Source: Owenia fusiformis | Lineage: Eukaryota; Annelida; Polychaeta; Sabellida; Oweniidae | DNA length: 64,000 nucleotides | Direction: 5' to 3' | Assembly (NCBI GenBank): GCA_903813345.2 | Contig: CAIIXF020000124.1 | Coordinates: 186,001 to 250,000 of the forward strand | Notes under the pieces: model-generated | The model's input: the letters and a program-made list of their open reading frames with translations, nothing else | Databases searched by the model: none | Told to the model about the DNA's origin: nothing | In this document: positions 1,097 to 29,095 of the stretch, in pieces | Position numbering within the stretch: the stretch's first letter is position 1 | Layout of the letters: the number at the start of each line of letters is the position of its first letter | Translations under genes and position numbers: made by a program

Positions 1097-4000
1097 ATGG
1101 ATCTTATAGAATATTTAGATCTTGGCGAAGATATACGGGATGAAGATGAGGTTGCAGATGACAATGAAAGTGGTATCAGCGATATCGAGGAAGAGCATAG
1201 CATAGATTCTGGATCTGAAAATGGTGATGATGACGATGATGATGTTGATGTTGATGATGATGACGATGATGAAAATGAGGAGGAAGAATGGATGCGTGTG
1301 GAGCATGAACCAGGGCCCCCAGTCAGGCAGGGGCGTTTTCAAGAAAATGTAGGGGTGATTCCACCTGTAGAAGGGTTAAAGGATCCTATAGACTTCTTCA
1401 ACCTGTTTTTCACATTAGAATTCTGGAATCTGTTGGTTACCGAAACAAACAGGTATGCAAAGACCTACACTTAGGCTTAAAGGGTTACAATGAGTTTCCC
1501 GTACAAAATCAATATGGTGGCTCCAGACGAGTTAACTGGATCAGTCCATTTTTAAGAAATAAGGGGAGTTTTTTAAATTTCAGTTTATTATGGAGATAAA
1601 ATAATCCGTTTACAATGATTTTGTCAACATTGACATCGTGAATTATGCAACATAAACAGGCAGAGGCGTTTACACAACGCTCTCAAACCTGACTACTACC
1701 CTTGAGTATTAGTTCGAGATAAGGCTATTTATACTAAACGGTGAGCAACACCAGAAACGAGCGTTCGATTTGCTAAACGATATGCGTTACGCTTTAAGTC
1801 CCCAGTCTTAATCTCAATCTGGATATGACAACTTTGTATTGAGCTAGATCAAATTTGTATTCCCCTCGTATCGATATTAGTGAGGTTAAGCTAGCACATA
1901 AAATCGAAACGCAAACCTAAACGTATGGCCAATCGCCCATACAAATGCATCGCTTAAATAACTTACATTCGCGTTTAGGTTGTGAAAAATAATGCTAGCT
2001 TAACCTCACTAATCTTTTGTACCAAGCACACGTAATTGCAATATAATTTTTGTCTTGATATTTTAGGTACGCTCATCAACTGATTTCAAGGATGGATCAA
2101 ACAGGATCCTTAACACCGTTTTGCCGTATGGGTAAGTGGATAGACCTGACCATATCCGAGATGAAATGTTTCATTGGGATCCACATGAATATGGGAGTAA
2201 CATCGCTACCGGACATGACCTATTATTGGAGCAAAAAATCCTTGATTGGAACATCGTGGTTCGGAAGAATTATGAGCAGAAATAGGTATATGATTTTTAC
2301 TCTTGTAATCTAGTGCAGTTTTAACCATTTCTAATCCTGAAACACACATCGCTTTAATTTATCGAGATACTGTACTCACCTTAAGCCCCGACTTTGATCT
2401 TGTTTTTATGTTAAACCTCAGTCTGTGCTCAAATCATTCAATTCACATTCTATTTCAAAGGAACTTTTAGCAGATGCGATTTCATTTTCAAAAGCTTTTG
2501 ATTGATTTGTTACTATAATTTTGGTCAATAAAGCATGCACTACACATATGAACACTGAAAATGCTTTCAGATTCCAGGCGATCCTTCGCTGCTTCCACGT
2601 TGTAGACAATTCCACTTGGCCTGTCCGACAAAGTCCAGACTACATGCCAGATGCAAGGTTCAGACCATTGGTGCGTCACTTCAACCGTATATCTACCAGT
2701 CTTTACAAACCACACAAGTACCTTAGTGTAGACGAATCTCTTGTTGGCACGAGAGTTAATAGTGCTATCAAGCAGTATATGCCGCAGAAGAGACACAGTC
2801 GTTTTGGAGTCAAGTTCTGGTCTATATGTGATTCCGTGAATTTTTACTGCCTAGCAATACATTGTTACTTAGGAAAGAGATTTGAAGGTAAATATCATCC
2901 CGGGGTGTATGTTTCTATTTTGACACAAATTTGTGCCCTGCTGTTAATCGGAACAAACTAACCCGTAAGAATTTTATGCCCTGGTCACCGACGATACGTA
3001 GACTGCTTGTTATGCTATTTTATATAATTATCGAAATTAAATCGTATAATTCGAGTTAAATGATATTTTTGCCCCTGGACCTTGATATTGTACTGAATGT
3101 CAAATGTTTAAAATTTGTTTCAGGAAACTATGTTCCATTTGGCCTAGGAGGCTGGGTGGTGGACAAGATGCTCCAACTCGCCGGGCTATTCGGAAAATGG
3201 TACCACGTATGTGCGGACAACCTCTTCCCGTCACCTACACTAGCTGACCATCTCTCACGTCGACGCGTATTTTTGACAGGAACCCTTAGGAGGAAAGCAG
3301 ATGTACCTAAAGAGCTGAAAACATGTAAACTTAATGTAAGTCTTGCTTCCTAAATGTAAAAATACTTTGGATGACTAATCGTGCAATATTTACTGTGAAC
3401 CTCAAGTGTCTAATAATTTTTAAAGTTTTATGAAAACTGAAGTGTCAAAATGTAAGTTCCTGATGTAAAATATGTATAGTAGCCTTGAGATAGTTTGTTT
3501 GATAATCATTGAAACATTTGTATCAGGCACTACAGATATAAAAGTCCGGATAAACTGAAGAAAATTTATGTCACAGAAAATGGAAGTCAGAATTTAGCAA
3601 ACTTGTCTAAGGAGAGAACCGCCTTCGTTACAAATCTATGTATATATTACCCCCTTTGTTTTAGAATAATGTTTCTCAATATGCTATGTTTCCTACTTAG
3701 GTGAACGAGGAGATTTATTTTCGTCGTGAAGGAACGTTGCTCCTTGGCTTTAAACCGACAAAATCAAAGAAAAGGCCAGTGCTGATGTTGTCTAACTTTG
3801 CTGTTGCGCGGGACGTGGCGTACAAGGGAGGGCAAAAACAGGAAATGGGAGCAATTTACAATAAGTTAGTAATGAACACATGCTAAATATTACTGATAAA
3901 AGTGCATAACCATAGGGCCTACGCATGCAAAAACGGATAAGAATTCAAACCATTGCCGGTGTAAAAGGGTAGGAGGTCCTATCAAATTATGGTCCTACTC

Positions 4001-4747
4001 TCCATTGATTTATGTGGTGACCTAATTACAACTCTTTCCCTTATTATCTTATACACAATCAGGGCCAGTAAGGGCCGTTAGGAAAGGGGACCATAATCCC
4101 TGAGGGACCATAATTTCTTTCACACCAGTTGTGTCCTTGTCATCAAACGTTCCGTTCAATTACAAGTACAGAATCCATCTTTTCTGAAATAAGTAATGTT
4201 GCACTCCATGTTAGCTAATAAAGACGTGGAAAATCGAGATCAGCGATGGTAGAAATTACTAAAATAACATCTCCAGTTTCACCCCTGATATATTTCCACA
4301 CATTACAAAGGGTGAATATTACCAAGGATATATCAATAGAAACAACATACATGATTCACATTTATGTCTTACAGGTACAAAGGAGGGATCGACGAAAACG
4401 ACGCGATGCTTTATAGATATTTAGATGAACGACGTAACCTGAGGTCGTGGAAGAAGATTGCCTTCAACATCTTGCAACGCATGGTTTTAAATGCCTACGT
4501 GCTGTACAAGGAGAATGCCGATGAAACACCGATGTCAAGATTAGACTTCCATTTGTCCGTCATAGCTTCCTTGACTTCCGAAACACAGGACCGGGATATG
4601 GTATTGAGAAAGCTACCGGGAAGGAGAGAGAAAGATTGCGCTGTCTGTTCAAATAGGGAGGCGGGAAGGAGGCGAAGGTCTAGGACAGTTTGCTCAGTTT
4701 GCCATAAAGGCCTGCATGAGGACTGCAGAAGATATCATAATTGTTGA
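1097..4747 (+). CDS. piggyBac-family transposase (PGBD-like), six exons, apparently intact
   Basis: Exons read at 1097-1452, 2067-2285, 2571-2887, 3124-3335, 3701-3864 and 4375-4747. All have GT-AG borders and joining phases, giving 546 residues. The N-terminus is acidic, with a long Asp/Glu run at about residues 40-65. The DDE/RNase H-like core shows the family aspartates: LSVDE in exon 3 (first Asp), WYHVCADNLF in exon 4 (second Asp), and YKGGIDENDAM in exon 6 (third Asp with the neighbouring Asp). The C-terminus is a Cys/His-rich finger (CAVC, CSVC, then H and C residues), as in piggyBac proteins that bind their own ends. The family cuts and pastes DNA at TTAA. I see no stop or frameshift. 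Five introns are unusual for a mobile piggyBac and more like a domesticated PGBD gene. The gene lies on the same strand as the CEP135-like gene and inside one of its introns. Confidence 0.93.
1876..2013. repeat. Snap-back MITE-like element inside piggyBac intron 1
   Basis: A perfect 21-base inverted repeat occupies 1876-1896 and 1993-2013 (it starts ATTAGTGAGGTTAAGC). Inside it is a second inverted pair, AACCTAAACG at 1914 and CGTTTAGGTT at 1972. The whole 138 bases can fold into one hairpin. No clear target duplication is visible. It is probably a small non-autonomous element that inserted into the intron. Confidence 0.7.
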
Positions 4748-5692: not shown

Positions 5693-8600
5693 AATCTAAA
5701 TGCTGACCTAGATGATGTCATTAATGAGCGTGAAGATCTAAAAGCACAGGTCCAAGATTACATGATAGAAGTTAAGCGTGTGGAAGAACTCTTGGCTGCA
5801 AAGGTATGTCATTGTCAGGCACTTTTTCCAAACTCATTTAACAGACACCCTCTTGTCACTGTCAGGCACTTTACAAATCACAAAATTAAGTATTGAGAAA
5901 AATCTAAAACCATCTGATGGCAATGGTCAAAATATAATATATCTTTTTCAAAACAAATTTAACAGACCCACTCCTGTCTTTACTCCTTTGCTATCCTAAT
6001 TCCAAAATTAAGAAATGAGTTTTGTGAAAAAAATTGATATTTGAACCATTCACCTAACATTATCTGGCACATGAGTTTTCAGATTGCCATTTTTGAACAC
6101 ACAGAGATCAGATTTGTTTGAAAACTACACTGTTGTATCAGATTCAGTCTCACTAGTATGGTCACTGTTCCACAACTAGTTACTTTTTGTTTTCTCATTT
6201 TTAAACCTACTCATAAGTCGAGTTGCGATATATCATTTGGCACAAAGTAAGACAATATAGTATAGCTTTTAGAAATGCTCTTTATTTGGAGTTTGATTTT
6301 TAAATAAAGCTGTAATTTATGCCTTTAGACCATCGCTTTTGTTACATTGACGTTAGTCATCAAAGTAACATACATTGGACTTTCGTCAAATGGACTTTCG
6401 TTCCATATAATAAATTCTATATAATGATAAGTTTTGATATTATTTTGATGGTAAACATAGTGTGTACCCATATTCAGTCAGTCTTGTGATAGGGGTTCTT
6501 ACTGCCAATTTTTCAAAGAATCTGAAAACTAATGCCACTTTTTGAAATTGCACATTTCAAGAAAAAAGGTTTATCTACAACTTGCAATCAGTTTTAAAAG
6601 TAAATGGAAGAATGAGTTTTTCGGAAAAAGTCTAATTGGACCAATAGTCTGTTAAATGGACCTGTTCTTTCATTAACAAAACTAATTCCAAATCAAAGAA
6701 ACTTATTGAAGCAAGACTATGTTTTGTTGCTTTGTGCCAAATTATAATCTTCAACTTGACTTATAAGTAGGTTTAAATCGAGAAATTAAAAAATATGTAT
6801 CCAGGAAGTTCATTGATTTTGTTACATTGACGTTCCATCAAAGTAACTAGTTGTGGAACAGTGATGGTGAGACCAGGGATGGCTTCAGGGATGGCTTCAC
6901 TTTTGAATAATGCACTTTTGATGCAATTCAGGAACAAGAGAGATCCGATTTGTTAGAGCAATACAGATTACTGACAAGTGAAGCAGAGACGTATCAAACG
7001 CAGTCCCACCAATTGGAAAGTGAAGGGTCTAATTTGAGGCTAGAGGTGATGACCAGGGAGTCAGAGATTAGGAGACAGAGGGAGAAGATTGACAGTTTAG
7101 AACGTGAGATACAAGAGGTATTGGAAGCATATATTATGAAATACAATTTGTAATTACCCAGATGCCAGTAGGTATAGTTTCCCCACCAGGTGCCAAAATT
7201 CTTAATTATCCCAACGAACGAAGTTCGGTAGGGATATAGTGAAGCCCTCCGTCCGTCCGTCCGTAGATAACTCAAATATTAGTTTACGGATTTTCTTCAT
7301 ATTTGGTGGAAAGATGTATATTGATGAATTTTTTTACGCAAAAATTTTTTTTTATCAAGATGGCCGCCGCTTAAAAAATGACGGGACTTTTTCGCAAAAA
7401 TCATAAATTTTTCATTCTAAACCAAAGTAATTATTATTGTTTGAAATTTTGGTAGTATATTCGCAACATCTATCTATTTCACATATATTCCGTGTTTTTC
7501 ATCCTGACCTCCAGGGGCCATGTATGGGGGGTCAGGAAAACAGAAATTTTCGCTAATTTTTAGATCTTTCTGAAGTATAGCTTTATTATACTCAAATGAA
7601 AGTCAATTAAGAGTAGATTGCAAATATTGTATCTTTTTTCTGATTCGAGCCTAGTAAATTTCAAAATGGCCGTCTAATGTACGATTTCGCAATAATTTTT
7701 CGATCCCTTCAAAGTATGGCTATATAATACTCAAATTAAAGGAATTTTGGAGTAGCTCACAATTATGGTATTATTTTCAGATTTGTACCTGAGAAAATTC
7801 AAAATGGATTTTTTCAAGATGGCCGCCACTTTAAAAATGACGGGACTTTTTCGCAAAAATCATAAATTTTTAATTCTAAACCAAAGTAATTATTATTGTT
7901 TGAAATTTTGGTAGTATATTCGCAACATCTATCTATTTCCCATATGTTCCGTGTTTTTCATCCTGACCCCCAGGGGCCATGTATGGGGGGTCAGGAAAAC
8001 ATAAATTTTCGCTAATTTTAAGATCATTCTGACGTATAGCTTTATTATACTCAAATGAAAAACAATTAGGAGTAGATTGCAAATATTGTATCTTTTTTCT
8101 GATTCGAGCCTCGTAAAATTCAAAATGGCCATCTAATGTACGATTTCGCAATAATTTTTCGATCCCCTCAAATTGAAGGAACTTTGGAGTAGATCACAAT
8201 AAAAGTATTATTTTTCAGATTTGTACCTCAGAAAATTCAAAATGGCTGCTTTGCAGGAATTCGCAATTCTAAAATCTAAATTTTTCAATTATAACCAAAG
8301 AAATGAGTATAATTGATTGGAATTCGGTAATTGATATTTTGTTTGTTGGGATTTGCTACTCCACGGAGTTGCCATTATCTAGTTAATTAATTCTTAATAA
8401 ATTTCCTTATTAATGTTGTGTTACTTGCATAATAGTTAATTTGATAGGTTACAGGAGAAATCATTGCAATAAAGAATTTGAGAACGACAGAAAAATTCAT
8501 GTTTAGATATATTAATTTAACAGCAAATAAACATCACTATGTTGCATGCTATATAGACAGTGCTTTTATTAAGTTTTAAATACATTTAATTATTTACTTT

Positions 8601-11600
8601 TTAAACTAAGTTGCATTGGAATGCAATAAAAAGGTCACATGAGGTACTACATGTATATATTCTCACATGAATGTACACACATTTTCTTTATCAATTCCTG
8701 AAGCACATTATCATGGGGTGCAATCGAATAATTTTGACAATTGGCCAGAGCATGACATTTACTAAGAAATTGCAGTGATCTAGCAGTAGCACAATTTTTT
8801 TTTAACTTGAAATATACTTCAATTTTGATAAATAAAGCAATCCATTCAAGCTGCGGTCAGTTGCCAAGTAATGTTTTAAAATCTATTTTTGATTACACAA
8901 AACAAAGACACATGTTGGAATAGTATTAAGACTATGCCAGATATTTTTTAAAAGCCTTTACTTGTAAAAAGTTATAATAGAAAAATGATCTTTCAGAGTA
9001 AAGGACATCTGCACCATTTTCAAATACTTCATATTTGATCTTGTAGAAGTGGGTTCCAACAGAATTCAGACATAATTATGAATGAAATAGCCATTGCATA
9101 GAATGTTTTATTTTATTTTGTCAAGATTAAAGTAGATTTCAAGTTAACAAATAACAAGTGCTGAATTATTGCTATTTCTTAGTAAAATGTCATGCTCAAC
9201 CCAACTGCCAAAATTAATTGATCGCATACACATGATTATGTTGTATTATGAACATATCACAATGTTGTAATCAAGACACATCTTTCGAAAGAGCTTCTTC
9301 CTTTCAACATGTTTACTTCTTCCTAATCTTAATTAGTAGAAATCAGATTCGTAGATTCAGGTTGTCAAAGATCATATATAGTTTTATCTTCACATGACAT
9401 CACTATTTTAATACAGGATCCCCTTGTCTCACTTGATAGCGTCACCGAGTTGCGATATTAATTAAAATGGATGACTATTTATCATTTGTCATATCCAGTT
9501 CCTGACATCAGACATATACAATGTTTTTATGTTATCTTTCTAATTATAATTGTCACACAACCTTAGATCAATATATCAGTGTTGTCTCCAGCTATTTTTC
9601 AAAATAAATACCTCTTTCCACTCTGTGCGTATGGAATTTTTTCAAATTAAGAGTCCAGAAACCTCTCCTCATAATGGAATTAATTAATTTGTTGATGACA
9701 TGAATACAGTTGATCAACTCCCACAGTCACACAGCATCTAGTCATCACTAAACACCTTGGAGCTGTAGGTTTTTATCACAACATGGAAAGGGTTTCAAAA
9801 GACCATTGAACTAGTTGTGAGAGGCAATCAATGCCACTTTATCCCAAAATATGATATATCCCAAAGAATTTTGAGGGAAATATGATATTTTGCATACTAT
9901 GGAATAATATAATGGTTCATGTATCTAGTCAGTCTATGAGAAATAAATCTTTCTGATCCATATATGCAAGCTTACAGTGTATGATATGTCTTATGAGTTT
10001 CAATTCATAATTAAGCTTCAAATGTCTGTACCTTTGTGTTTTATAATTACAGCATATGCAAGCTAATAGAGCCTATGAGGTGCAAATGTCTGACCCTTTG
10101 TGTTTTATAATTAAAGCATATGCAAGCTAATAGAGCCTATGAGGTGCAAATTCCTAACCCTGTGTTTCATAATTACAGCATATGCAAGCTAATATGAGGT
10201 GCAAATGTCTGACCCTTTGTATTTCATAATTACAGCATATGCAAGTTAATAGAGCCTATGAGGTGCAAATGTCTGACTCTTTGTGTTTCATAATTACAGC
10301 ATATGCAAGTTAATACAACCTATGAGGTGCAAGTGTCTGACACTTTATGTTTTATAATTAAAGCATATGCAAGTTAATAGAGCCTATGAGGTGCAAATGT
10401 CTGACTCTTTGTGTTTCATAATTACAGCATATGCAAGTTAATAGAGCCTATGAGGTGCAAATATCTGGCCCTTTGTGTTTCATAATTACAGCATATGCAA
10501 GCTAATAGAGCCTATGAGGTGCAAATCTCTGACTCTTTGTATTTCATAATTACAGCATATGCAAGCTAATAGAGCCTATGAGGTGCAAATGTCTGACCCT
10601 TTGTGTTTCATAATTACAGCATATGCAAGCTAATAGAGCCTATGAGGTGCAAATGTCTGACCCTTTGTGTTTCATAATTATTACAGCATATGCAAGCTAA
10701 TAGAGCCTATGAGGTGCAAATGTCTGACCCTTTGTGTTTCATAATTACAGCATATGCAAGCTAATAGAGCCTATGAGGTGCAAATGTCTGACCCTTTGTG
10801 TTTCATAATTATTACAGCATATGCAAGCCAATAGAGCCTATGAGGTGCAAATGTCTGACCCTTTGTGTTTCATAATTACAGCATATGCAAGCTAATAGAG
10901 CCTATGAGGTGCAAATCTCTGACCCTTTGTGTTTCATAATTACAGCATATGCAAGCTAATAGAGCCTATGAGGTGCAAGTATCTGATTTGACGCATTCAG
11001 TTGCAAGCCTTGAGGAGAGGGTGAGACAGTTAGATAATGATAAGATATCAACGCAACAAGACTTAGCAGCTGTTAGGGACCTCTGTGCTAAAGTAGAATC
11101 TACAAAGGATAATCTTGCAAGACAATTGTCATCTAAGTCTATGGATAATGAACAGGTAACAGATAGTGTCCAGTTGTCTTCAATTTTGATTTTGAGTTAA
11201 ATAGCATTTAAATGCCCTTTGTATGCATGTACCTTTCAAGCATTACTCAAAGCCACTACAAGTAAATAACAGTATAATGTTTATGTACTTTATGTATTTT
11301 GTAAAATAAATTCTATGAATAAAAAAAAGAAGCATTTCACATTTTCTCATTTCACTTTACCTTTTTCTCAACGTTAAGAAACAAATCAGTTGCTAGGTAT
11401 CTTTTGGAATAAACTAGCTTATACATTATGAATTAATTGTTTGTTTAGATCCAGACTCTGCTTGATGACATGAAACGAGAAGTTGAAATTCTACGCAGCC
11501 AGGTGGGATCTGAACGCACAAATGTCAAAAGTCTAGAACAAATACTGCAAACAAATCGCGAGAAAGAATTCCAAACTTCATTATCCTCTCAGGAGAAAAA

Positions 11601-12925
11601 TGCTGAGATTCAATTATTGAGGGATCGTCTTCAGCTGAATGACAGTAAAATGTAAGTGCATGGAAACAAAATATTTTTAGTTGCAAAGAACTTGTTTTAG
11701 ATGAATTGTCAGCATATTCCAGAGAAACTTTGTGAGTTTACTCAATGAGAGACTGAGTAAACCTCTTGACTAATCAGAGTGATGAGATTTCTCGTCACCA
11801 AAGAAATGACCTTGAAACCCAAGGTGATGGATAATCTGTCACAATTTTTTCCACTAAATTTGCTCTAATTTGAACGATTACGTCCAATTTACACAAAAAT
11901 TGTTTAAAAATGTGTAGAAATGACCTCTGCTGACTAATATCACTAAATTTAGCATCACCTGTTGTATGTGTATGTAGTAATATGTCAAAAGTTCTCTTAT
12001 TTCAACCGATTTTAGAGACTGGGATTCAAGAGGTTAATAAAGACTTTGTAAAACTTTCATTATGCTAATGTTTCACAAAATTTGATGTTTGTTTTTCTAG
12101 GGAAAGTTTAAATCGAGAGATATCTACACTAAGGAGCAGAAACATTGAGCAAGATGCGGAAATCGACAGACTTAGAAGAGACTTGACCAATGAGAGATTT
12201 GAAAGGTAAAAGATTTCAGTCATCCATAATGTATTATTTTATAAATCCTTATTATGCTTAACAGAAGAGAACCCAATTAAAAGTAGTGCTGACATATTGC
12301 TTGTATATATTTTTATCATACATATCTATTCCACTGATCTCGGGTGTCTTTAGACTTAATTAGTGTATACTTGACATTTATGTGCATTTGAGCGTTTGCT
12401 CTCCAAATCGAGGAAATAAAGAATGATATCATATCATATCATAAGCTCATAAATGATTTCTTTTGGTGTCGTGTTTTGCATGAGTGCATGTTAGAACGGC
12501 GTGTAACTTCATTCTGAGCTTTGCCACGTAACGAGACACATTTTATTTTAATAAAATAAATTAGGATTTAGAACATTTACATGTCTTTGATTGATCGCGT
12601 ACCCTTTCCGCATTAATTTGAGGTTTTGAATGGCCGGGATCAATCAATTTCGATCAATGTTAATTTATATTTCTTTGTTAAGTCTTAACGTTCTCATTCA
12701 GAGTGCTCTTTCTATTTTATCATTACTTACATTTCCAGAGAGAGGACGTCTCAACAGCTCCGTCGCCTTGGTAACACCCCTCCCACAGATAGTGGAAGAG
12801 CTAGTAGGTCAACACGCATCAGTGCAACATCGTCAAGGTCTTCCATGAGTCCAACCAGACGCACCAGATCTCCCGACCGCTCATACAGTCGCACCAGTAG
12901 CAGGGCAGAAAATGGACACTTGTAA
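5693..12925 (+). CDS. CEP135: CEP135/TSGA10-family centriolar coiled-coil protein, C-terminal exons (5' part outside window)
   Basis: Six exons read at 5693-5803, 6932-7117, 10946-11155, 11449-11651, 12101-12205 and 12739-12925 join in frame and encode the last 333 residues. Nearly all is heptad-rich coiled coil, rich in Glu, Arg, Leu and Gln. Blocks such as VQDYMIEVKRVEELLAAK, ERSDLLEQYRLL, GSNLRLEVMTRESEIRR, SLEREIQ and EKNAEIQLLRDRL match my memory of the conserved C-terminal half of CEP135 and its paralogue TSGA10. The end is a Ser/Arg/Pro-rich tail with SPTRRTRSPDRS. In the family, CEP135 works at the centriole cartwheel and wall. Upstream exons must lie left of the window, so the piggyBac gene is intronic. 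The acceptor at 10946 is the last of 15 tandem junction copies. TSGA10 is the main alternative name; CEP135 is preferred because invertebrates usually carry the single ancestral gene. Confidence 0.85.
5804..6931. repeat. CEP135-like intron with a long imperfect palindromic element (about 6147-6874)
   Basis: The outer arms are inverted copies: the left arm holds CACTGTTCCACAACTAGTTAC from about 6163, and the right arm holds its complement ending near 6861. The match continues inward through a GTTTAAACCTACTTATAAGT-like block and a TTTGGCACAAAG block. Two internal GTTACATTGACGTT segments (about 6335 and 6819) each face a TCAAAGTAAC. The structure is a foldback or MITE about 730 bases long. No coding content. 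Confidence 0.6.
7205..8385. repeat. Non-autonomous DNA element with internal tandem duplication
   Basis: It starts near ATCCCAACGAACGAAG and ends near GTTTGTTGGGAT, a short inverted terminal match. A CCGT run follows the left end at about 7248-7265. Inside, a block of about 460 bases (from about 7345) is repeated almost exactly (from about 7806), sharing GACGGGACTTTTTCGC, ATTTTGGTAGTATATTCGC and CCAGGGGCCATGTATGG. The repeat carries AAAATGGC motifs like those of the element at 22451-24278. It lies in a CEP135-like intron. Confidence 0.65.
8386..10017. other. AT-rich intron sequence
   Basis: This is the rest of the CEP135-like intron between the exon ending 7117 and the exon starting 10946. 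I see no exon, no clear repeat and no RNA gene. Confidence 0.5.
10018..10978 (+). repeat. Tandem array of about 15 copies of an intron-exon junction (64-67 bp unit)
   Basis: Each unit consists of about 31 bases of intron end (TCTGACCCTTTGTGTTTCAT then AATTACAG) followed by about 33 bases equal to the start of the CEP135-like exon (CATATGCAAGCTAATAGAGC and onward to GAGGTGCAA). Fifteen CATATGCAAG starts occur, near 10053 and then every 62-67 bases, ending with the true exon at 10946. Most copies keep the AG acceptor; copies 2 and 6 have AAAG instead of ACAG. Two copies have three extra bases (ATTATTACAG). With a 64-base step, reading from an upstream acceptor through the next copy runs into TAA (GCA AGC TAA). 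Only the last acceptor therefore opens the full exon. Confidence 0.95.
12320..12443 (+). repeat. Possible retroelement tail ending in an ATATC microsatellite
   Basis: A stretch ending GGAAATAAAGAATGATATC is followed by repeats of ATATC to about 12441. Such short tails often end SINEs or LINEs. No promoter boxes or reverse-transcriptase coding were seen upstream, so this is only a hint. Confidence 0.3.
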
Positions 12926-14204: not shown

Positions 14205-17200
14205 TCAAATAAGATCTGTTAGAACACATGTAGATTGTGCGATTGGATTCTGTTTTGTTGGGCTTGGCTCTGAGTCCTCGTCAATACTTTCTAGTCTCAC
14301 CCTAGAGGGCGCTAGAACGGGATCTGCAGAAACACGCCGAGACGTGTGTTTTTTCTCGTGTAATGCTCGCATGGCATGTAAATCTACCAACAAGGAACTC
14401 TCTGCTGTGATAGATTGACTCCTGGCTTTGTCATATGTTAAAGTGTCTAGGTCAACCCCGCCATAATTTAATTTAGGAACTTCTAAGAATTGCCCTGATG
14501 AGTTTGTCATTGAGACTGATCCTCCTCGTTTTGGAAGTGGTGCTAAATCAGCTTCCACTTGCCTGAGGTCGCTTATGTAGGAGTCCTGAGTGATCTCAGA
14601 TGTACAGATACTGTTCCTGTATGCGCTGTCACTGGCTGCACTAAATGCAGATGAAGATCTGGTTGTTTTGGTGGTGATAGTCGCATTGGATGCCATGCTG
14701 TGATGTCGTGTATCTGCTTCACGGAATCGTGTGTTCTTAACACGTTTCCTTTTCTTCTGTCCACGTAGCATCCTCTTCAATGTATGGCGGAATCGTTTAT
14801 TTGTCATTGTGTATATGTATGGATTTATAGCGCTGTTCATCAAAAGAAGCCATGTAGCTATAGCATGTATCTCAGGCGTGGAGGGATCATGGCCAGTATG
14901 GTTATCAATGGTCGTTTTCATACTGACAACGACATAGGGAAACCAGCAGATGAGGTATACGAGGATCAACGCGAACAATCGTAACGTTGCCTTAAGGCTC
15001 TTTTTCGTATTTGACTGACCGACATTTGAAGTTGTGCTTGTTGTGTCATGATCAAAGTCAGCATTGCTTGCGACACTGTTTTCTTCATGATCTACTTGTG
15101 AAAAGTTCTCCCCCGAGTGTGTGCTATTGAACATGGATATCCTTGCGATTGGGTCTAACATGGCTAATGCAAGTGCACCTGAGTTTGTCCCAGTGGTCGG
15201 GCTGTTATGTTGATCCCTGGTTAACTGGATTGAGATATCAGCGATACGCCTAGCATGCTGCCGCGCCACCTTTATAATCTTAACGTAGCAGTATGTGATA
15301 ACCATCAATGGAAATGCGAAACAGGTCACCAACATAAATATGGCGTAACTCAGATGATACGTCCAATCTATGCTACAGATGTACCTGAACTTTCTGTAGT
15401 CTATATTGCCCCAACCTAGCAATGGTAAAGTGCTACATATAACGGCCTGGGTCCATATCCAGATTACGACTTTGGTGATGTATTTGATGCTGGAGCGAGA
15501 GGTGTACTCGAAGCAGTTGATGATGGCCTGGTATCGATCCATTGAGATTGAAGCAAGGCTCAGAGCTGAACCGATGCAGCATACGCTTGTCAGGAAACCA
15601 GCTATCTTGCAACCCGCCTGGAAAACAAAATACACACAGTGAGGTCTAGAAATGTTTAAAAAACCATATAATAACAATTCAGAAATTATGCATTTTCTCG
15701 AGTATAAAATGCATGCTACTGCTGACAGACATTAGACTGAATTAAGCGCAAATTGCTATTTTCATATTTTTCTTGTTGAATATGTATCTTCAGCGTTAAT
15801 CAAATTTTACCCTCGTTCAAAATACGAACTACAACCCCCTCATAAGATTGGTAACCCGGACATTACTGCAACTAACGGCTTCCGGCTACCGGATTAACCA
15901 ATTATTTTATGACCAACTCATTAAAATATGAATAGAATAGTGGCAGGTACTATTCATATTTAAATGAGTTGCCCATAAATAGTAGGTTAATCCGATAGCC
16001 GACAGTCGAAAGTTGCAAGCTAAGATAGTATATTAAACCCTTGCCCGTAGCCAGCTTTTACCAGGGGGGGGGGGCTTTTTGCAAGGGGGGGAGCTTTTTC
16101 ACAATTTTGGCTAAAAATCATGCGAAAAATTCTCAGAATGGTGAAAAACTGCATGATTTTGAAAGAATTTCTGGCCAGGGGGGAGCTTCCGCTCCCCCAG
16201 CTCCCCCTCTGGCTACAACGGGCCTGAAACCCTGTCTTGAAAATTTGCAACAACGCTACCCATTAATAATACAATCATTCTTGAAGATTAATTGATAATT
16301 TGTAAATGTTCATGAGACGAGCACATAATTTCAAAGGGGGTGATGACCTAACTATGATTCGCTCTTCTATTTCTGTTTGCTTCTTTGTGAATTGGAGCGT
16401 GATGACCTTAGTATGATTGATAACACATAATTCAATTTATAAATAACCGGAGATGAAATGAGAAGCTCCTTTCAAGTTGATGTAAAGCATTATCATGCCA
16501 TGATTAAACCTCCTTCCTTCTCAAGTCTCAGATGTCAGATAAAAAGATGTGATGAGTGTCATAACACTTTTTAAATAACCTGTTCCTCTCAACGATGCCA
16601 TTCTGTTGTGGGTGTTAAGGTGATGACTTTAAGTTCATTCGTCCGTTTTATGGGTCTTTAAATGAAAGCATTTATTGAAAATCTTGATTTTTTGTTCTTG
16701 GCCTATATACAGGGTGGGCCAAAAAAAACCACCCCCCTAGCCATTACTCCTGATAAATATTTATTTTTCAACATGTACACCAACAATGATATATCATTTT
16801 AAAGATAATTTAATTTGCAACAAAATGATATATACTAGCACCATTTTCAACAACCCCATATAGAAATATAACCAATTATGTGACATGGGGGTCAAAAAAC
16901 ACCTTTTCAAATTTTCTCGATTTTGCAAACAAAAGCCTATTTCTACCAAATTTTACTGTTCAGTTCAAAATTGCAACATTGTCATGAGTCTTTCATGATT
17001 GGATATTATATATTGTTTTCATTCAGTTTTTGAACCATGCATGCTCAATAAACATGTATATGCTTATAAAACAAATTAATTTCTTCTTCAGTCTGTCCAA
17101 ATATGGCTCAATAGACCCACCCCCGGACCCATCCTCTGATCAGATTATTCGCTTAAGACGCGGAAGCCATTCGTTGATGGCATAATTGATGGATGTATGC

Positions 17201-20200
17201 GGAAGTACCATTCAACTGCTAGTTATTCTTTCTTTTAGTTCCTCTTCATCCCTGATAGGCTGGGTATCTTTAAATACCAAATGTTTTAGATGCCCCCAGG
17301 TATGGTAATCAACATTATTGGCATCTGGACTGTCAGTAAGCCATTTGTCCGGGCTAGAGATGGTGTCATTTCGAATCTCCAAAAACTCCAGGGTAGCATT
17401 GGACCTGTGTGATGAAGCACTTTCCTATCAGAAAATGAATTTTTTTACATGTTTTCTATATCCTTGAGGAGTCCTTTTTAACACATCGTGTCATTTACAT
17501 TCAGAGTATAGTTTTGCTCCTGGTTCAACAAAAAGGGCCTGTACGGTCTCTCCTTTTTGGGAAACACCGAGTGGACACCACTGCCCTTTCAGAAAAATGT
17601 CATCTCGATTTGAGTAGCCTTTTATTGCAAATGTCCCTATTCTTGCTTACTGATATATAGAGTATATCCTGTTGATTACATGTATAGTACTTGGGGCATT
17701 TAGAACAGTTGGTCTATGAAGATCACAAGCCTATCAGGGATGTAGACAGACTGAAAGAATGAATAATTACGAGTTGGATGGTACTTCCGCAGAGATCCAT
17801 CAATTATACCAATGGCTTTTGCGTCTTTAGAGAATAATCTGATCAGAGGATGGGTCCAGGGGGTGGGTCTATTGAGCCATATTTGGACAGACTTAAGAAG
17901 AAATTAATTTGTTTTATAAGCATACACATGTTTATTAAGCACGAATGGTTCAAAAACTGAATGAATATAATATATAATATCCAATTATGAAAGACTCATG
18001 ACAATGTTGCAATTTTTAACTGAACGGTAAAATTTGGTAGAAATAGGCTTTTGTTTGCAAAATCGAGAAAAATTGAAAAGGTGTTTTTTGACCCCCATGT
18101 CACATAATTGGTTATATCTCGAGCCAGGGTTGTTGAAAATTGTTCTATTATATATCATTTTGTTGCAAATTAAATTATCTTTAAAATGATATATCATTGT
18201 TGGTGTACATGTCAGAAAATAAATATTTATCAGGAGTAATGGCTAGGGGGGTGGGTTTTTTTGGCCCACCCTGTAGAGGATTTCACCCCACTTTTGGTCG
18301 GGGGAAGAGCTATACGTGTTTAAGATAGACTTAAAGAGTTCATGGTCTTAAGTAAAGATTAACAAACGCGTTTCGAGCTCACAATTGCAAGATAATGTTA
18401 CGTCGCCTAGCTTAGCATGTTCAGTGTCATAGGCAGCGTCACCATTGCCAACCCAACTCCCAAAACATCGAATGGGAAAGTTATATGCAGTAGATCCAAA
18501 AATGAGATGAAATTAACCAAATAACATTGATGCACATGTGTCAGTTAAGGACAAAACATAAAAACCATCATCAGATCATGCAGGGGCTGAGTGACCCCTC
18601 CTTTCAGGTCATGTACCTCATACATATATCAGATTATACGTCATCAGATAATACGACATACGTCTGAAGCATCTAATCTGATTGACACCTCTATGTTTTA
18701 CAAATGAATCCTTTATTCTCAGACATGGAAACGATTATAACCCAAAGAAGCTAGTTTGACAACTACGGAATTGTGTAATATATGCATCAATTGATCAATA
18801 ATGAATATAAATAAAAAATGAAAATTGAACATGAGTATATGGGTAAAATCTGGTTCACTTATTGCCCAGTTTGTTGAATTAATTCAACATACTCAAAGGG
18901 ACTATCTGACATCGCGAGCAATGAGCTCATATTAGTAGCGGGGCCTTGAAAGATATGATAACATTGAAATAAGACATTTTCCTTGAAACCTTATTTATTA
19001 ATTATAAAGTACGAGTACATACATAAAACACTGCAAATAATACTAAGTGACACCATGAGGAATATATTATTACAAGAGCAAAAAGGATCAATTTAACTAG
19101 TTAAAAAGTGTAATGTATAAGACTCCTAAAATAATACGGTAAATATAATGAGCCAAAAACGACATCATTAACCTTCATAGACAAGGCAAATTGTAACCGA
19201 ATGTAAATCAAATATTAGAAGTTGTAAACACTATTTAATAACGTTAACCACATTCTGTTATAGCAAGGTGAAACAAGTTCTGTCGAGTGGCTATAAATTA
19301 ATTTACCTTTCTAGGTAAGATCCAAGTGCTTCTAATTTAGTGTCTTGAAATTGCTCTTATTCTTGATATGAAATCATATGTCATGAGAGCCGACGCTGAT
19401 ACGGTGATAAGCTCTTTAGTTCTCTGTCGAACATATTTAATCTGTGTTAGGCCATTACAAATTAAATTGTGTTTAGCGACTTGTTCACTCTGGACCATTC
19501 AAAGGTGCACAATACGCCAACTCTGTAAATCATGACATGTTTTGGCTTTGATTTAATTCTTAAAAGTTTCAGAACCGAATTGGGATTAAATAATTAATTT
19601 GTATTTGATTAGGTATCCTTAATGCATTGCTCGAACTCGCACTTCTTGAAATTCAATCTTCTATTAGTGTGCAGGTAGTTAGTTTATGGCATAATATGCC
19701 ATAAACTATGATAAACTTTCTAAGTGTGTCACGCGGTATTCCTCGTGTTCTCAGCAGCCATTCTTCGTCTTTTCAGTTGTGCAATTTGCTATTAAGCAGA
19801 AAAAGTCTTAGAAGTCTTTACGTTCATTTCTCATTAATTGGTTCTCAGGTGTTCTCTAGCATAAGTATGTTATTATTAGACGAATATATAGTGACCATCA
19901 GTGCAAATAATTTCCCCGATGGTTTATATGTCTACTAATATGTACCTGAGGTTGTACATGTATTACGGACTATGACGTCGGCTTTGGGAGCGGCCATTGA
20001 CACTTTGACACTCACTCGGGTCTTTCTATTTAATTTGAGAGTGGATTTGTCAGTTCCACATCGTTCGAGACTTACTGCTAGTTACTGAGCGATAAATTTG
20101 ATAAATTAATTAGCGATACATTTGGTTATTTTGATAAAGGGCACACATGAAATAAGCATTATCAGATAATATAGATTTTGATATTATCGCTAACATCGAT

Positions 20201-23200: not shown

Positions 23201-26200
23201 AAAATCCAAAATGGCTGCCTTGACATTTATCCAGAATGCCGTAAAAATTATCAGATCTAGATTTTCATACTGAGAATCATCCCTGAAAATTTGAAATTGA
23301 TCTACCAAACGGTTCACCTGAAAATGCGTAGACAAGACTTTACAGACACGATTTTAGGACGGAAAATCCAAAATGGCTGCCTTGACATTTACCCAGAATG
23401 CCCAAAAACTAATCAGATCTAGATTCTCATACTAAGAATCATCCCTGAAAATTTGAAATTGATCTACCAAACGGTTCACCTGAAAACGCGTAGACAAGAC
23501 TTTACAGACAAGATTTTAGGACGGAAAAATCCAAAATGGCCGACAATAAAAAAGTGATTATGAGTTTTTGCTGAAATCTTTTTACAAAATTATCACATAT
23601 ACCTACTGTTAACAATAACATAAGCTTTTACAACAAAGTACACCTGAAATTATTTATAAAGCTACTAAAAAGTTAAAGCATGAAAACTGAAAAACACCAT
23701 TCAATATGATACAAAGTATTATCGTGCGCTAACTTTTCTTAAAACATTCAAAATGGCTGACATGACTGAGCTAACAGGTCCAAAACCTAATCAGATCTAG
23801 AATGAAGTGAGCTGAACAAGATGTTAAAGTTTTAAAAGCAACTGTGAAGCCGTTTTTCTTAAAGTTTGCAGACAAGGATTTTAGCATTTGACTTCAAAAT
23901 GGCCGACAGGAAGTAGGTATCGAGTTAATTTTTTTTCATCCACATCTGCATGCACTCATAAATTATCCCTGAAAATTTGAAGGTGATATCTGCAGCGGTT
24001 TTGGAGAAAACTTCCGGACGTACGGACGGACAGACAGACGGACAGACAGACGGACGGACAGACGGACGGACGGACAGACGGACGCGCCTAGGCCGACAAT
24101 ATGGCCCCACACTATGTGGTGGGGACATAAAAAGTTTTTCAATCGGATGGTGTCATATTGTTAGGAGATGCATGATTTATTTTTAAAATAATATATCATA
24201 TACACGGTATATGGCATGGTTTAACATATATCATATGATTCATCTTTATAATTGTGTTTTGTTTTTTGGTCCACCCTGTAAAACCAAACGCTTTCGCCCT
24301 TTTGTCGTATGCCGCATAAACATAAACGCTGACTCACAAAATTGGATCAACCTAGCCAACCCTTTTCCATTTGTATTTTTGTAACAGTTTCATTGGAACG
24401 CAGACAGGGAATACATTAATATAGGTTAGTTTTACATTGACAAATGTCAGCAGCTTTAACAGTTATTAACGAGAGTATGAAAATAAAAGACTAAACTGAA
24501 TACCCATCGGTGAAACTCAATATTTTGACAAGGTAAACAAAAAATTCCAAGGCAAGAGTGACACAAATATGAATATATGGAGCTCGCAGTCCGTTCACGT
24601 CACCAAAATGTTATTGCCAAAATTTCTATTTTTCGATTAATTATTCAGCTTTTTGAGCTCTGTTTAAGTGATTTTGGCAATTTTTGGGCAAAAGTTGTAA
24701 AAAGTGAGCACCCCTTGAATTTTTCAAAAAGTGAACCCCCTCCGCAAATCCTGGCTACGGGCCTGCTATTATTCAATTAATGTTTTTTTAATTGTCCGAG
24801 TACAAAATGAAATGATCGAAGACAATTACTATTTAGGGATAATTTTAGCAATAAACCATGCCGTCGATGGAGTTTACATTGTTGAAAATGGCATCTTAAA
24901 TTCAATAATTATGTTATTTTGTACTATAATTCATGGCCTGCCAATCATCGGTTACCATGGCGATTGTAAGAAAAGAGATGCTATGACTATCCATATTGAG
25001 TAGGGTGGTCCAAAATATGGCGAAAAACCAACTTTCTTTCGGATCATCTTCCTCATTTGACTTACTGTTGTCCATGACCTAAAACACCTGCACACCAAAT
25101 TTTGAGACCCAAATCCCATGGGAAATTTACCCACGCTTCGACTGAAAAATTCGGTTATTTCATGATTTTTTGCTATATTCAATAAATTGCCATCTCCTTT
25201 TTCCTGGTATAAAATGTTTCTATTTTTTCATAATAAACATTTTTGTAGGACTCTTTATTACTTAATAATACTAGGAGCCCAAACACCAAATTTTGAGACC
25301 CAAATCCCATGTGAAATTTACCCATGCTTTGACTGAAAAATTGTGATTTTCACAGTTTTGTCCGATTTTCAATAGATTACTGTCTCCATTTTCCTGGTAT
25401 AATATGTTTCTATTTTTTCAAAATAAATATTTTTGGATGACTCTTTATTACTTCATAATACTAGGAACCCATACACCAAATTTTGAGACCAAAATCCCAT
25501 GGGAAATTTACCCATGGTCTGACTGAAAAATTGTGATTTTCACATTTTTCCGATTTTCAATAAATTGCTGTCTCCATTTTCCTGGTACGATATGTTTTTA
25601 TAATAAACATTTTTGAGGACTCTTTATTACTTCAAATACTAAAAACCCATACACCAAATATCCACCAAATTTGAGACCCAAATCCAATGAGAACGTTACC
25701 CATGCTTTGACTGAAAACTGGTGCTTATGATAGCTTATGATGTCTGTTTAAGGGGCACAATATGTTAATAAACATTATGGTAATTCCTTCTTAATCCAAA
25801 GAAACACCTAAATATCAAGACTTTAAGTCTTATTGAAAGGCGACAAATTTAGTAGTTTGGGGAAAATTTAGGATCTTTTACTTGTACATTTATATACTGT
25901 GGTTAATATTAAGAAGTGATGACTCGACAGCAACTCAAATGCCTTGAAGATTTGGTTTGTTGGTTTCAGTAGGGATACATCACAGGACTTTGTTAGGATT
26001 TGTGTGAGATGTCATATTCTTTCTCACATTTTTGCAGGGTAAGGTCAAATATCAAATCTGATTTTCTTTGGAGAAATGATTTTTTGATTGATCAATGTAT
26101 CAATGGCATGGTCTCTGTTGTAACCAGTAAGCCTGTACCAAATCTTCAAGGGATTCGAGCTTCCACTGAGCTTTGTCATTTCTCTGAAAATGTTCATGCC

Positions 26201-29002
26201 CTGAAAGTACACAATGTAAAAAATAGGAAGAGCAATGAGAAACACTTAAGGTAATTCTGTATGTTCAGAAATTTTAAGTGGACTCCAATGTTATTTCTGG
26301 AACTCATTCCATACTTGGTCAGCTCTTTCAATTTTACACTGAGTTCAAATATGTATTTAGATTATTTGTTGATGGTTAGTAATTTTCTATAATGTACTAT
26401 GTGCTATGTTTATACACTGTTTGTGCATCTGAATGGAATGAGTTCCTGAAAAAAACACGGGGCTCCAATTAGGAAGCCATTAAAACTGAAAATAAGGAAT
26501 TACCTTAAAGTACTATATAACCATCTTTCACGATGTAACGTATGTAAGGCCAAACAGGATAATTAAGACAACGTGTAATACAATTTATTACAAATTGCAC
26601 ATCACACAACAATGATATGGTGCTCTAAACGACAAAAATCAAAAGTATATGATCAAAGCAAACGTGAATTTCCCATGGGGTTCAGGTCTAAACATTTGGA
26701 ACATATTGAATGTATGGGTTCCTAGTATTAAGAACGTATTAATGTCCTCCTAAAATGTTTAAAAACTAAATATAAGATTAATGTTGATCTATTGAAAATA
26801 GGAGAAAATTCGTAGAAAATTTTGGGTTGAAGCATGAATTAATTTCTCATGGGGCCAGGGTCTCAAAATTTGGTGCATATTTGGGGTATGGGTTCCTCGT
26901 ATTATGAAGTAATAAAGAGTCCTCCCAAAATATTTATTATAAAAAATAGAAACATATAATACCAGGAAAATAGAGATGTATTGTATTGTATATGAAATAA
27001 CCCAATTTTTCAGTCGAAGCGTGGGTAAATTTCCCATGGGATTTGGGTCTCAAAATTTGATATATGGGTTCCTAAGTATTATGAAGTAATAAAGAGTCAT
27101 CCAAAAATATTTATTATGAAAAGACATCTACCATTTTATACCAGGAAAATGGAGATGGCAATTTATCGAAAATAGCAAAAAATTATGAAATAAACGAATT
27201 TTTCAGTCGAAGCGTGGGTAAATTTCCCATGGGATTTGGGTCTCAACATTTGGTGTATGGGTTCCTAGTATTATGAAGTAATAAAGAGTCCTACAAAAAT
27301 GTTTATTATGAAAAAATAGAAACATATTATACCAGGAAAAGGGAGATAACAATTTGTCGAAAATAGCAAAAAATCATGAAATCTCCGAATTTTCAGTCGA
27401 AGCGTGGGTAAATTTCCCATGTGATTTGGGTCTTAAAATTTGGTGTGTATGTGTTTTAGGTCATGGACAACAGTAAGTGAAATGAGGAAGATGATCTGAA
27501 ACAAAGTTGGTTTTTCGCCATATTTTGGACCACCCTAATATTGAGTTTGGCTATTATATCAAAATAATAGGGGCATTTTATGAAATATGCGACAATGCAA
27601 AATATGCAAGTAAAGGATTAGCTTTCATGATGAAATTACACCCTTTTCAGGAACCTAGTGATAATAATATGATTTCCTTTATTTATAAAAATCTTGATGA
27701 ACGCTAATAAGTTATCAACAATTAATGGGAAAATCTAATTAGGTATAAAACCTTTTCTTCTCTTAGGCAACCGTGAAATGATATACATGTACTTCGGATA
27801 TGTGACGAATGTTTAATTCTTATTTTTGTTAAGTTTTAACAAGGGCTTTCCAAGAGGGGATTTCTATACTAAAGGGAGGTTAAGTTATATTTTTAAATTG
27901 TACGTGGACGTGTAGAATTATGGTCCGATTGAGTAAAGTATGCTAAGTTATTCAATGATTCGAGTGAAATACAGAAAATATTCTGCCCGAGAAGGTCTGA
28001 ATTTCACGAGGCGCTTGCGCTTGCTTGCGAGACTTTCGAGGGAAGAATATTTTCTGTATTTCACGAGAAATCATTGATTAAGGTTTTTATTCCGTGATCA
28101 TTCAGATGAAACTACTCCCATAATCAAGTCCAATTCCTTGGCCTGGCCGGAGAAAATTCAGACAGATCAACCTTACTCACTCCATAGATATTTTGGTAGA
28201 CGTCTCCAATTCCATCATCTGAAAGTGCAGTGTAGCGAAACATTTTGGAGGAAATGTGCATGCTTCACAGGGGCGTAGCCAGCTTTCAGTCAGGGGGGGG
28301 GGTGTGCGATCGGTTTTCAGTCAGGGGGTGCGATTTTAAAACCCTTTTCTTCTTCTTTATCATGGTTTTATTTTTATTGGTTATGGAGGGGATTGCACCC
28401 ATCGCACCCCTCCCGGGCCCCGGCTACGCCTATGCTTCAAATTGTTTTTTTATATTTACAGATGCGGGGCCTCTGAAAGCCCATGGTCCCTAGAAACCGA
28501 ATTGATAGCGGGAGAGTAATCCCCCCCCCGAAATATTACACGTTCGCGTTCTTAAAACATGCAATTTACCTCCCCGATATTAAACCTTTTCTCCTAGATT
28601 AATTTATTCACCTGATGAATTGAAATTGGATTTTTTGCTTGTGGTTTTTAAAACTCTTCCCCAGGTCTTAATTTTATTAAAGTTGCGGTGTAAATTATTA
28701 TAAAGAAAATAATATATTACCACATCATATGTGTTGCCAAGGAACAAGTTGCTAATGACCAGGGGCATGACAAGGGCCCCAACCATCAGGTCACTGAGTG
28801 CAAGGTTAAGCAGAAACGCCGATGTCGTATCACGAAGTCGTCTGCTACAAAATACCGTCACTATTATCACAACGTTGCCACCTATCGCAAACAGACAGAA
28901 TAACGACATTGTTGTCACTAAAATTATTAGGCCAAGTTTGTTGTCAAAACGGTTGGCATTTGCAACGCTAACTAATGTCCTGTTTTGGTATTCATTGAAC
29001 AT
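14205..29002 (-). CDS. Class A orphan GPCR, GPR161-like, two coding exons
   Basis: Exon 1 is 29002-28721 (94 codons) and exon 2 is 15617-14205. The donor reads GATGTG|GTAATA and the acceptor TTTTCCAG|GCGGGT, phase 0, joining to 564 residues. The ATG at 29002 is chosen because an in-frame stop lies upstream and no earlier ATG exists. The extracellular N-terminus is short with an NRT glycosylation site. TM1 and TM2 (NLALSDLMVGA) are in exon 1. Exon 2 opens with the TM3 cysteine (AGCKIAGF), then SISMDRYQA (DRY), TM4 ending LLGWG, TM5, a long Ser/Thr-rich third loop, TM6 (LICWFPYVV), and TM7 NSAINPYIY (NPxxY). The spacing around TM3-TM5 and the tail (RRVSAD, RLESIDEDSE) recall GPR161, a ciliary receptor acting through cAMP/PKA on Hedgehog signalling. 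The receptor class is certain; the GPR161 identity is inferred. The 13.1-kb intron is full of transposons. Confidence 0.85.
15869..16016. repeat. Palindromic MITE, family member 1
   Basis: Inverted arms begin GCAACTAACGGCTTCCGG and end with a complement (CGAAAGTTGC). Inner arms pair around ATTTAAATGAGTTG. A sister copy lies at 30108-30287, sharing CTATCGGATTA-type arms and the GTGGCAGGTACTA core. It lies in the GPCR intron near exon 2. Confidence 0.7.
16041..16226. repeat. MITE-like element with CCCGTAGCCAG / CTGGCTACAACGGG ends
   Basis: Imperfect inverted ends flank G-rich and C-rich runs (GGGGGGGGGG near 16064 and CTCCCCCAGCTCCCCC near 16192). Decayed relatives occur near 24563-24770, 28268-28430 and 44373-44470, all with a GTAGCCAG or GGCTACG end. 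Confidence 0.5.
17100..17415 (-). pseudogene. Mariner-like transposase C-terminal fragment
   Basis: Reverse-strand translation gives a stop-free run containing WLTDSPDANNVDYHTWG, then PIRDEEELKERI, and after a frame change EWLPRLKRII. This order matches the third-catalytic-residue block and C-terminus of mariner-type DDE transposases. The position expected to carry the last catalytic Asp reads NNVDY. Upstream catalytic parts are absent. Confidence 0.7.
17671..17830 (+). pseudogene. Second mariner-like transposase fragment, opposite orientation
   Basis: Plus-strand reading gives VDY, then a small frame break, then LGHLEQLVYEDHKPIRD and a stop within a few codons. It is homologous to the fragment at 17100-17415 but diverged, and faces the other end of the same foldback element. 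Confidence 0.6.
20137..20233. repeat. Hairpin repeat with AAATAAGCATT / AATGCTTATTT arms
   Basis: Arms AAAGGGCACACATGAAATAA (left) and the near-complement ending CACGTGGGCCCTTTT (right) pair over about 25 bases. The right arm sequence recurs once at about 20297-20321. Confidence 0.5.
21056..21258. repeat. MITE with ACACTCCCC terminal inverted repeats
   Basis: The left end reads ACACTCCCCCGCATAAGTTT. The right end, read in reverse, is ACACTCCCCTCCAGAAGTTT. The terminal match is about 25 bases with a few changes. No coding. Confidence 0.65.
22680..23545. repeat. Six tandem copies of a ~160-bp satellite unit
   Basis: Each unit contains GTAGACAAGACTTTAC, GACGGAAAATCCAAAATGGC and CATCCCTGAAAATTTGAAAT. 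Copies start near 22684, 22844, 23006, 23166, 23326 and 23486. Later copies are more alike than the first. Confidence 0.85.
24016..24084. repeat. GGAC/GGACA microsatellite
   Basis: A run of GGACGGACAGAC-type units near the right side of the mariner-like element. A CCGT run sits beside the element at 7205, which suggests related elements carry this microsatellite. Confidence 0.85.
25001..27537. mobile_element. hAT-like non-autonomous DNA transposon, 2.5 kb, perfect 8-bp target duplication
   Basis: The terminal inverted repeat begins TAGGGTGGTCCAAAATATGG and continues with high similarity through CGAAAAACCAACTTT. The end fits the hAT YARNG pattern. Exact ATATTGAG copies flank it at 24993-25000 and 27538-27545; 8-bp duplications are typical of hAT. 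Each arm holds several copies of a unit of about 180 bases (AAATCCCATGGGAAATTTAC and AATACTAGGA marks), inverted between arms. The unique middle (about 25750-26640) holds a candidate exon. No hAT transposase is seen, so it must have moved with an enzyme from elsewhere. Confidence 0.85.
26038..26250 (+). other. Candidate captured exon inside the hAT-like element
   Basis: A 213-base stretch is open in one frame (71 codons), preceded by TTTTTGCAG and followed by GTAATT, so it has both splice sites. The translation is of mixed composition, including DFLWRNDFLIDQCINGM and RASTELCHFSENVHAL. I do not recognise it. It could be a host exon picked up by the element or a remnant of its own gene. Confidence 0.35.
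27952..28077. repeat. Palindromic MITE with 33-base arms
   Basis: The arms TCAATGATTCGAGTGAAATA and the complement ending CACGAGAAATCATTGA also pair through ACAGAAAATATTCT. A short GC-rich loop (GAGGCGCTTGCGC) separates them. No coding. Confidence 0.65.
28268..28430. repeat. Decayed element with GGGGCGTAGCCAGC / CGGCTACGCC ends
   Basis: Short inverted ends flank G-rich and C-rich runs. It resembles the elements at 16041-16226 and 44373-44470. It lies in the GPCR intron about 290 bases from exon 1. Confidence 0.45.
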
Positions 29003-29095
29003 CTCGTCCAAGTGTGTGGTGTTTTCAAAAAGCACGTCCTTCCACACGTCCTTAAGCACGTCCTTCCACACGTCCTTTTACACGCGTTTGTTTTT
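29003..29095 (-). repeat. Short tandem repeat in the GPCR 5' leader
   Basis: Upstream of the GPCR ATG, CACGTCCTTCCA and CACGTCCTTAAG units alternate at about 29033-29078 (12-bp step). In the transcript direction they read as KDVW/KDVL codons, but an in-frame TAA precedes them and no ATG opens them, so they are probably untranslated. Confidence 0.6.

Follow-up and report, generated by a model that had tools for sequence, protein, structure and literature searches.

How does the splicing machinery select one acceptor when the start of a coding exon is preceded by many copies of itself, and how does the gene keep its reading frame? This question arises in a 64-kb stretch of Owenia fusiformis DNA (the window), an AT-rich region with 35% G+C whose intron-rich genes are of an animal type, where one exon is fused to a tandem array that repeats its own splice acceptor. 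The choice among identical acceptors is usually studied in engineered minigenes, and in 1986 Reed and Maniatis reportedly examined the cis-competition of duplicated 3' splice sites in such minigenes. As in those constructs, identical acceptors would compete in one transcript here; the minigenes were man-made, whereas the fifteen acceptors of this locus are natural. The array is probably a tolerated tandem expansion that provides a natural experiment on site choice.

Results

Host gene and anatomy of the array

The array lies on the + strand in what appears to be a coiled-coil gene of an animal. Six exons of this gene can be placed from position 5693 onward (5693-5803, phase 0; 6932-7117, with the donor GAG/GTATTG; 10946-11155; 11449-11651; 12101-12205; and the last coding exon at 12739-12925), and together they form a 333-codon open frame ending in the TAA at 12923-12925. 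The exon fused to the array (10946-11155) is 210 nt in length, is open throughout with phase 0 at both ends, and its frame continues that of the exon ending at 7117 and runs on into the exon that starts at 11449. It is preceded by a 3,828-nt intron (7118-10945) that ends in the array and is followed by an intron of 293 nt. A Pfam search of the gene product gave nine matches of generic coiled-coil type, all under the cut-off, and a PDB search gave seven weak generic coiled coils (best E 0.003). The name CEP135, after the centriole protein that the C-terminus may resemble, is tentative, and neither search confirms it.

Tandem Repeats Finder places the array at 10019-10986 with a period of 64, 15.2 copies, 91% matches and a score of 1602, and the head-to-tail tandem units are within the range of approximately 10-100 bp that defines a minisatellite. 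Each 64-base unit consists of 31 bases of the intron end and 33 bases (11 codons) of the exon start, so that an intron 3' end with its AG and an exon 5' end are present together, as in the duplication of the potato RdRp type. The first exonic bases of copies 1-15 are at 10053, 10117, 10179, 10236, 10300, 10364, 10428, 10492, 10556, 10620, 10687, 10751, 10818, 10882 and 10946, and the spacing between successive acceptors (n = 14) is 64 throughout save for values of 62, 57, 67 and 67. The fifteenth copy is the start of the actual exon. The remaining copies provide 14 decoy acceptors with pseudo-exon starts at 10053-10908, the last of these positions being the end of the 27-nt exon part of copy 14. 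An earlier note on this DNA had described tandem copies of an intron end plus exon start with the last copy as the exon, and Tandem Repeats Finder, anchoring on the AGs and the in-frame joins all bear this out. It was right that decoys exist, although it put them at up to about 13 where 14 are counted, and its statement that most copies keep a usable AG was too cautious, as the AG is retained in 15/15 copies (12 CAG and 2 AAG among the decoys).

Local strength of the decoy acceptors

Splice sites were scored with matrices built from 17 donors and 19 acceptors chosen by eye, without RNA support, in the coiled-coil genes of the window. The real acceptor at 10946, omitted from its own matrix, scores 5.50, compared with 1.67 to 13.75 for the 19 hand-picked native acceptors, and 5.5% of the AGs in the window equal or exceed it; the array acceptors are middling sites. 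Scores of the 14 decoys range from 3.35 to 6.89, nine of them equal or exceed the real acceptor, and six (copies 5, 7, 8, 10, 12 and 14) are identical to it across 21 bases, in agreement with the earlier claim that the decoys look usable. Every unit has a T-rich tract, an AG and the first exon codons, and a branch-like CTGAC or CTAAC is located 22-27 nt 5' of the exon start in 13 of the 15 copies, including the real one (the exceptions are copies 1 and 8). Judged by these elements, most units appear to be near-complete acceptor modules. Since nine decoys score at least as well as the real site and six are identical to it, the right site must be distinguished by its context and not by the local sequence, and in a transcript with fifteen acceptors, six of the decoys being identical, any preference in the RNA must reflect position or exon context.

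Consequences of decoy use

The length of the exon would range from 210 nt with the real acceptor up to 1,103 nt with that of copy 1. All 14 decoys lead to an early stop on read-through, located at the 17th to 28th codon (after 16-27 codons); these include the decoys of copies 6, 9 and 12, which lie a multiple of three bases upstream of the real acceptor and yet are also stopped. A TAA shared by the copies and met in the next copy ends 11 of these read-throughs, with a peptide end of ...AYAS, and other stops end the remaining three. The expectation that any decoy read-through would hit the TAA of the next copy thus holds for the early stop in every case and for that particular codon in 11 of 14. 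The exon has phase 0 on both sides, so its skipping would lose 70 codons with the frame kept.

A tandem duplication of this kind would leave one complete exon with its own acceptor downstream, and the extra copies would thus formally be intronic. Across the 210-nt exon, the spliceosome would then mostly recognise the exon-proximal acceptor and the donor at 11156 as a pair, and exon definition beside the 3.8-kb intron would favour the last acceptor. Use of a decoy would give a longer exon with an early stop and would be expected to lead to nonsense-mediated decay. We infer that the array is tolerated because the complete exon is intact, the long intron favours cross-exon pairing, and leakage yields stop-carrying or exon-skipped RNA. 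In one study of human splicing, alternative sites beside long introns shift toward those nearest across the exon (PMC9225289). The same study reports an overall preference for upstream 3' splice sites that is only lessened by exon definition (PMC9225289), which together with the short downstream intron means that exon definition is not assured at this locus and that decoy use could be substantial. Some leakage to the decoys is therefore likely on our analysis, and decay of the stop-carrying products would be expected; new or young Drosophila introns are argued in another report to be shielded by decay (PMC2809761).

Origin, growth and constraint

We consider it moderately probable that the array is a minisatellite which arose from one boundary-crossing tandem duplication, expanded and was tolerated, with the last acceptor being used. 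Within the intron the array starts at CAAATGTCTG, and it is at CAAGTATCTGA that the real exon departs from it. Seeding may have occurred by tandem duplication with break points in CAAATGTCTGA (intron) and CAAGTATCTGA (exon); these 11-base stretches match at 9/11 bases, and copying between them would yield exactly the 64-base unit. Later expansion would have proceeded by slippage or unequal exchange, most recently beside the exon. Relative to copy 15, there are 1-2 substitutions in each of copies 10-14 and 2-7 in each of copies 1-9, and position is correlated with difference from copy 15 across copies 1-14 (Spearman rho -0.80, p = 0.0006). Singleton substitutions taken by themselves show no significant gradient (rho -0.41, p = 0.14), and the similarity of adjacent copies is marginal (permutation p = 0.063). 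The spacings of 67, 64, 67 and 64 from copy 10 to copy 14 fit a recent two-unit step. These patterns among the copies suggest growth of the array beside the exon.

Variation is unevenly distributed within the unit: the 37 intron columns hold 15 substitution types and the 27 exon columns hold 4 (one-sided p = 0.048). The lower variation of the exon part gives a hint of constraint, contrary to what is expected of a fully neutral array. There is no sign of coding constraint on the copies, as three of the four exon-part substitution types change the amino acid and copy 3 has lost 7 bases. The preserved AGs were considered as a sign of selection and rejected as evidence for it: given 0.0198 substitution types per site and copy, the probability that chance alone leaves 15/15 AGs intact is P = 0.55, so that the earlier claim of selection, insofar as it concerned the keeping of the array or its AGs, is not upheld. 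The chance of finding no change in the four bases of AG and GT in 14 copies is similarly appreciable (P = 0.33).

Other boundary-crossing repeats in the window

Two further repeats on the + strand cross exon boundaries at the donor side. The first, at 57610-57828, is a 49-bp tandem array of an exon end with the donor AAG/GTATGA (AAG/GTATTG in the fourth copy) and is a mirror image of the acceptor array; only the first, exon-proximal donor of the four keeps the frame, and the other three run into a stop. The second, at 40488-40735, comprises two tandem copies of an approximately 127-bp block (spacing 126-128 bp) in which an exon end carries the strong donors AAG/GTAAGG and GTAAGA. Reading beyond the first of these donors meets a stop (frame ending at 40550), and the second copy contains a CAGCAG acceptor, scoring only 0.76, behind which a phase-0 mini-exon of 36 or 33 nt is possible. 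We counted the frame behaviour of both repeats in favour of an exon-proximal-site explanation of the acceptor array.

Tandem repeats in the window are not enriched at splice junctions, since 3 of 15 arrays cross one of the 36 hand-made junctions with 1.79 expected (P = 0.26). The 15 arrays were chosen by hand from 31 Tandem Repeats Finder rows, with overlaps merged and rows dropped where they held only units below 20 bp; the 20-bp pair at 16054-16091 was left out by oversight, and the pair at 40488, which is absent from the Tandem Repeats Finder output, was added after its junction crossing had been seen. All of these choices, like the inclusion of the main array, bias the count upward, yet the result shows no excess.

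Searches around the array gave no indication of a special RNA structure (-258.6 vs -249.6 kcal/mol for shuffles, z -1.35, with 4 of 20 shuffles as good). None of the six inverted-repeat pairs in 9000-11500 is wholly inside the array, and one 12-nt pair has one arm inside. No Rfam family reached its gathering score in the 64-kb window, and no convincing dispersed copy of the unit was found there, the two blastn matches outside the array both having E 0.39. An exact 28-base piece of the unit had 0 matches in IMG/VR, which says little since this is not a eukaryote collection.

The window also contains a transposase piece at 2506-2958 on the + strand (Pfam DDE_Tnp_1_7, E 2.9e-17), and the surrounding frames from about 2059 to 4744 appear by eye to be parts of the same element. 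Very similar frames at 16829-16984 (+) and 17999-18154 (-), approximately 1 kb apart, are by eye perhaps the arms of a mobile element. Arrays of approximately 190-bp units occupy 25092-25659 and 26991-27442, their consensus sequences appearing by eye to be reverse complements of each other, and a 25-bp minisatellite (17.5 copies, 92% matches) is located at 55531-55968 close to coiled-coil exons. Frames of Rhodopsin-family receptors (Pfam 7tm_1) are present at 14208-15731 (-) and 28607-29077 (-).

Discussion

Alternative explanations of the array

A different function for the array would be that of a splicing rheostat, in which a real share of splicing goes to the decoys, the stop-carrying products decay, copy number sets the amount of productive mRNA and length variants alter expression. 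The length-variable regulator suggested in the earlier note is a possible role of this kind. The scores of the nine decoys that match or exceed the real acceptor, the stops in all 14 read-throughs and the overall preference for upstream 3' sites in the human data (PMC9225289) speak for such a role; retention of the AGs is no better than chance, and selection would be expected to remove 14 decoys if their load were strong. On balance we regard a rheostat as unlikely. Slightly more doubtful still is a natural rheostat in which most of the fifteen modules capture splicing, the products of all but the last are bound for decay, and heritable length sets output, as it would for an array that grows next to the exon. 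Such a rheostat also allows, rarely, a 9-codon in-frame mini-exon through copy skipping.

Mini-exons would be possible because every unit (15/15) contains GAG/GTGCAA, a weak donor-like sequence that the earlier note had missed (10080-10974, + strand; first GT at 10080, last at 10973). With this site the unit can be parsed into a phase-0 mini-exon of 27 nt and a gap of 37 nt (range 35-40 nt), and joining of non-neighbouring copies in a cassette of HMQANRAYE-like units would add nine residues each. The exon part is 27 nt in 14 of 15 copies, and skipping of one copy would give introns of 92-104 nt with 68-80 nt from donor to branch (12 of the 13 listed pairs, those with a branch-like motif). The productive minimum for this distance in human introns is approximately 45-47 nt, with more than 60 nt being low-risk, according to PMC11291888, and a cryptic exonic donor was used likewise in the potato RdRp gene (PMC4974935). 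Against these points, the donor-like site scores 1.65 in 15/15 copies, below all 17 native donors (the lowest at 2.32), and 31% of the + strand GTs in the window (1,068 of 3,454) score at least as well. Splicing between neighbouring copies would have a donor-to-branch distance of 13 nt in 12 of the 13 listed pairs, well short of the human minimum, the other pair having no motif. The real exon carries the same GAG/GTGCAA, use of which would end it after codon 9, three of the four exon-part substitution types alter the amino acid, and the exon part of copy 3 is 20 nt. A mini-exon reading of the units is thus unlikely, and we give the cassette very little credence.

An assembly artefact, by which the true genome would have few copies, is least credible of all: copies 10, 12 and 14 are identical across the unit and could be mis-counted, and the 67/64 spacing pattern recurs, but private substitutions in six of the 15 copies (1, 3, 5, 6, 8 and 13) and indels of three kinds argue against a pure artefact, and the array is shorter than 1 kb.

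Comparison with known systems

Boundary-crossing tandem duplication is a published route to new introns, as in the potato RdRp gene (PMC4974935). There too an intron 3' end and an exon 5' end were duplicated, and the copy inherits a branch site, pyrimidine tract and AG with a cryptic exonic GT downstream. Potato has two copies vs the fifteen described here, and its donor is GTAAG with a new intron backed by RNA-Seq reads (PMC4974935), whereas the donor-like site of the array is weak. In human segmental-duplication genes, minisatellites at exon-intron boundaries can lead to novel introns and alternative splicing; that work describes expansion at such a boundary, in general likeness to our array, and bases it on transcripts and paralogue comparison (PMC2812944).

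The fission yeast genes SPOG_01682 and SOCG_00815 resemble the array in having several tandem copies with splice-like sites, and differences among copies of their 24-nt repeats were used as an argument against assembly error (PMC3629103). Those repeats consist of exon-like sequence with a proto-splice site and, unlike the array, inherit no whole acceptor; they have EST support, once for a segment longer than annotated (PMC3629103). Novel introns in Drosophila likewise show tandem duplication yielding competing splice sites, and premature stops suggest decay as a safety net (PMC2891723). That report concerns purely exonic coding duplications with a proto-splice site and one new intron each, in contrast to our array (PMC2891723). 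With respect to the Rogers AGGT model, GAGGTG is present in every unit and the copies supply both GT and AG; the usable-looking AG of the unit is the inherited intron AG, not the AG within AGGT.

The kind of event is already known; what stands out is how many near-complete acceptors are gathered at a single site, fifteen being an unusual extreme. No array of many near-complete acceptors was found among the literature matches listed, which comprised titles and abstract beginnings mostly from outside subscription journals.

Conclusions

Taken as a tolerated minisatellite whose last acceptor is used, the array shows that a minisatellite can occupy the edge of a coding exon while the reading frame stays whole, and it shows how raw material for new introns can accumulate.
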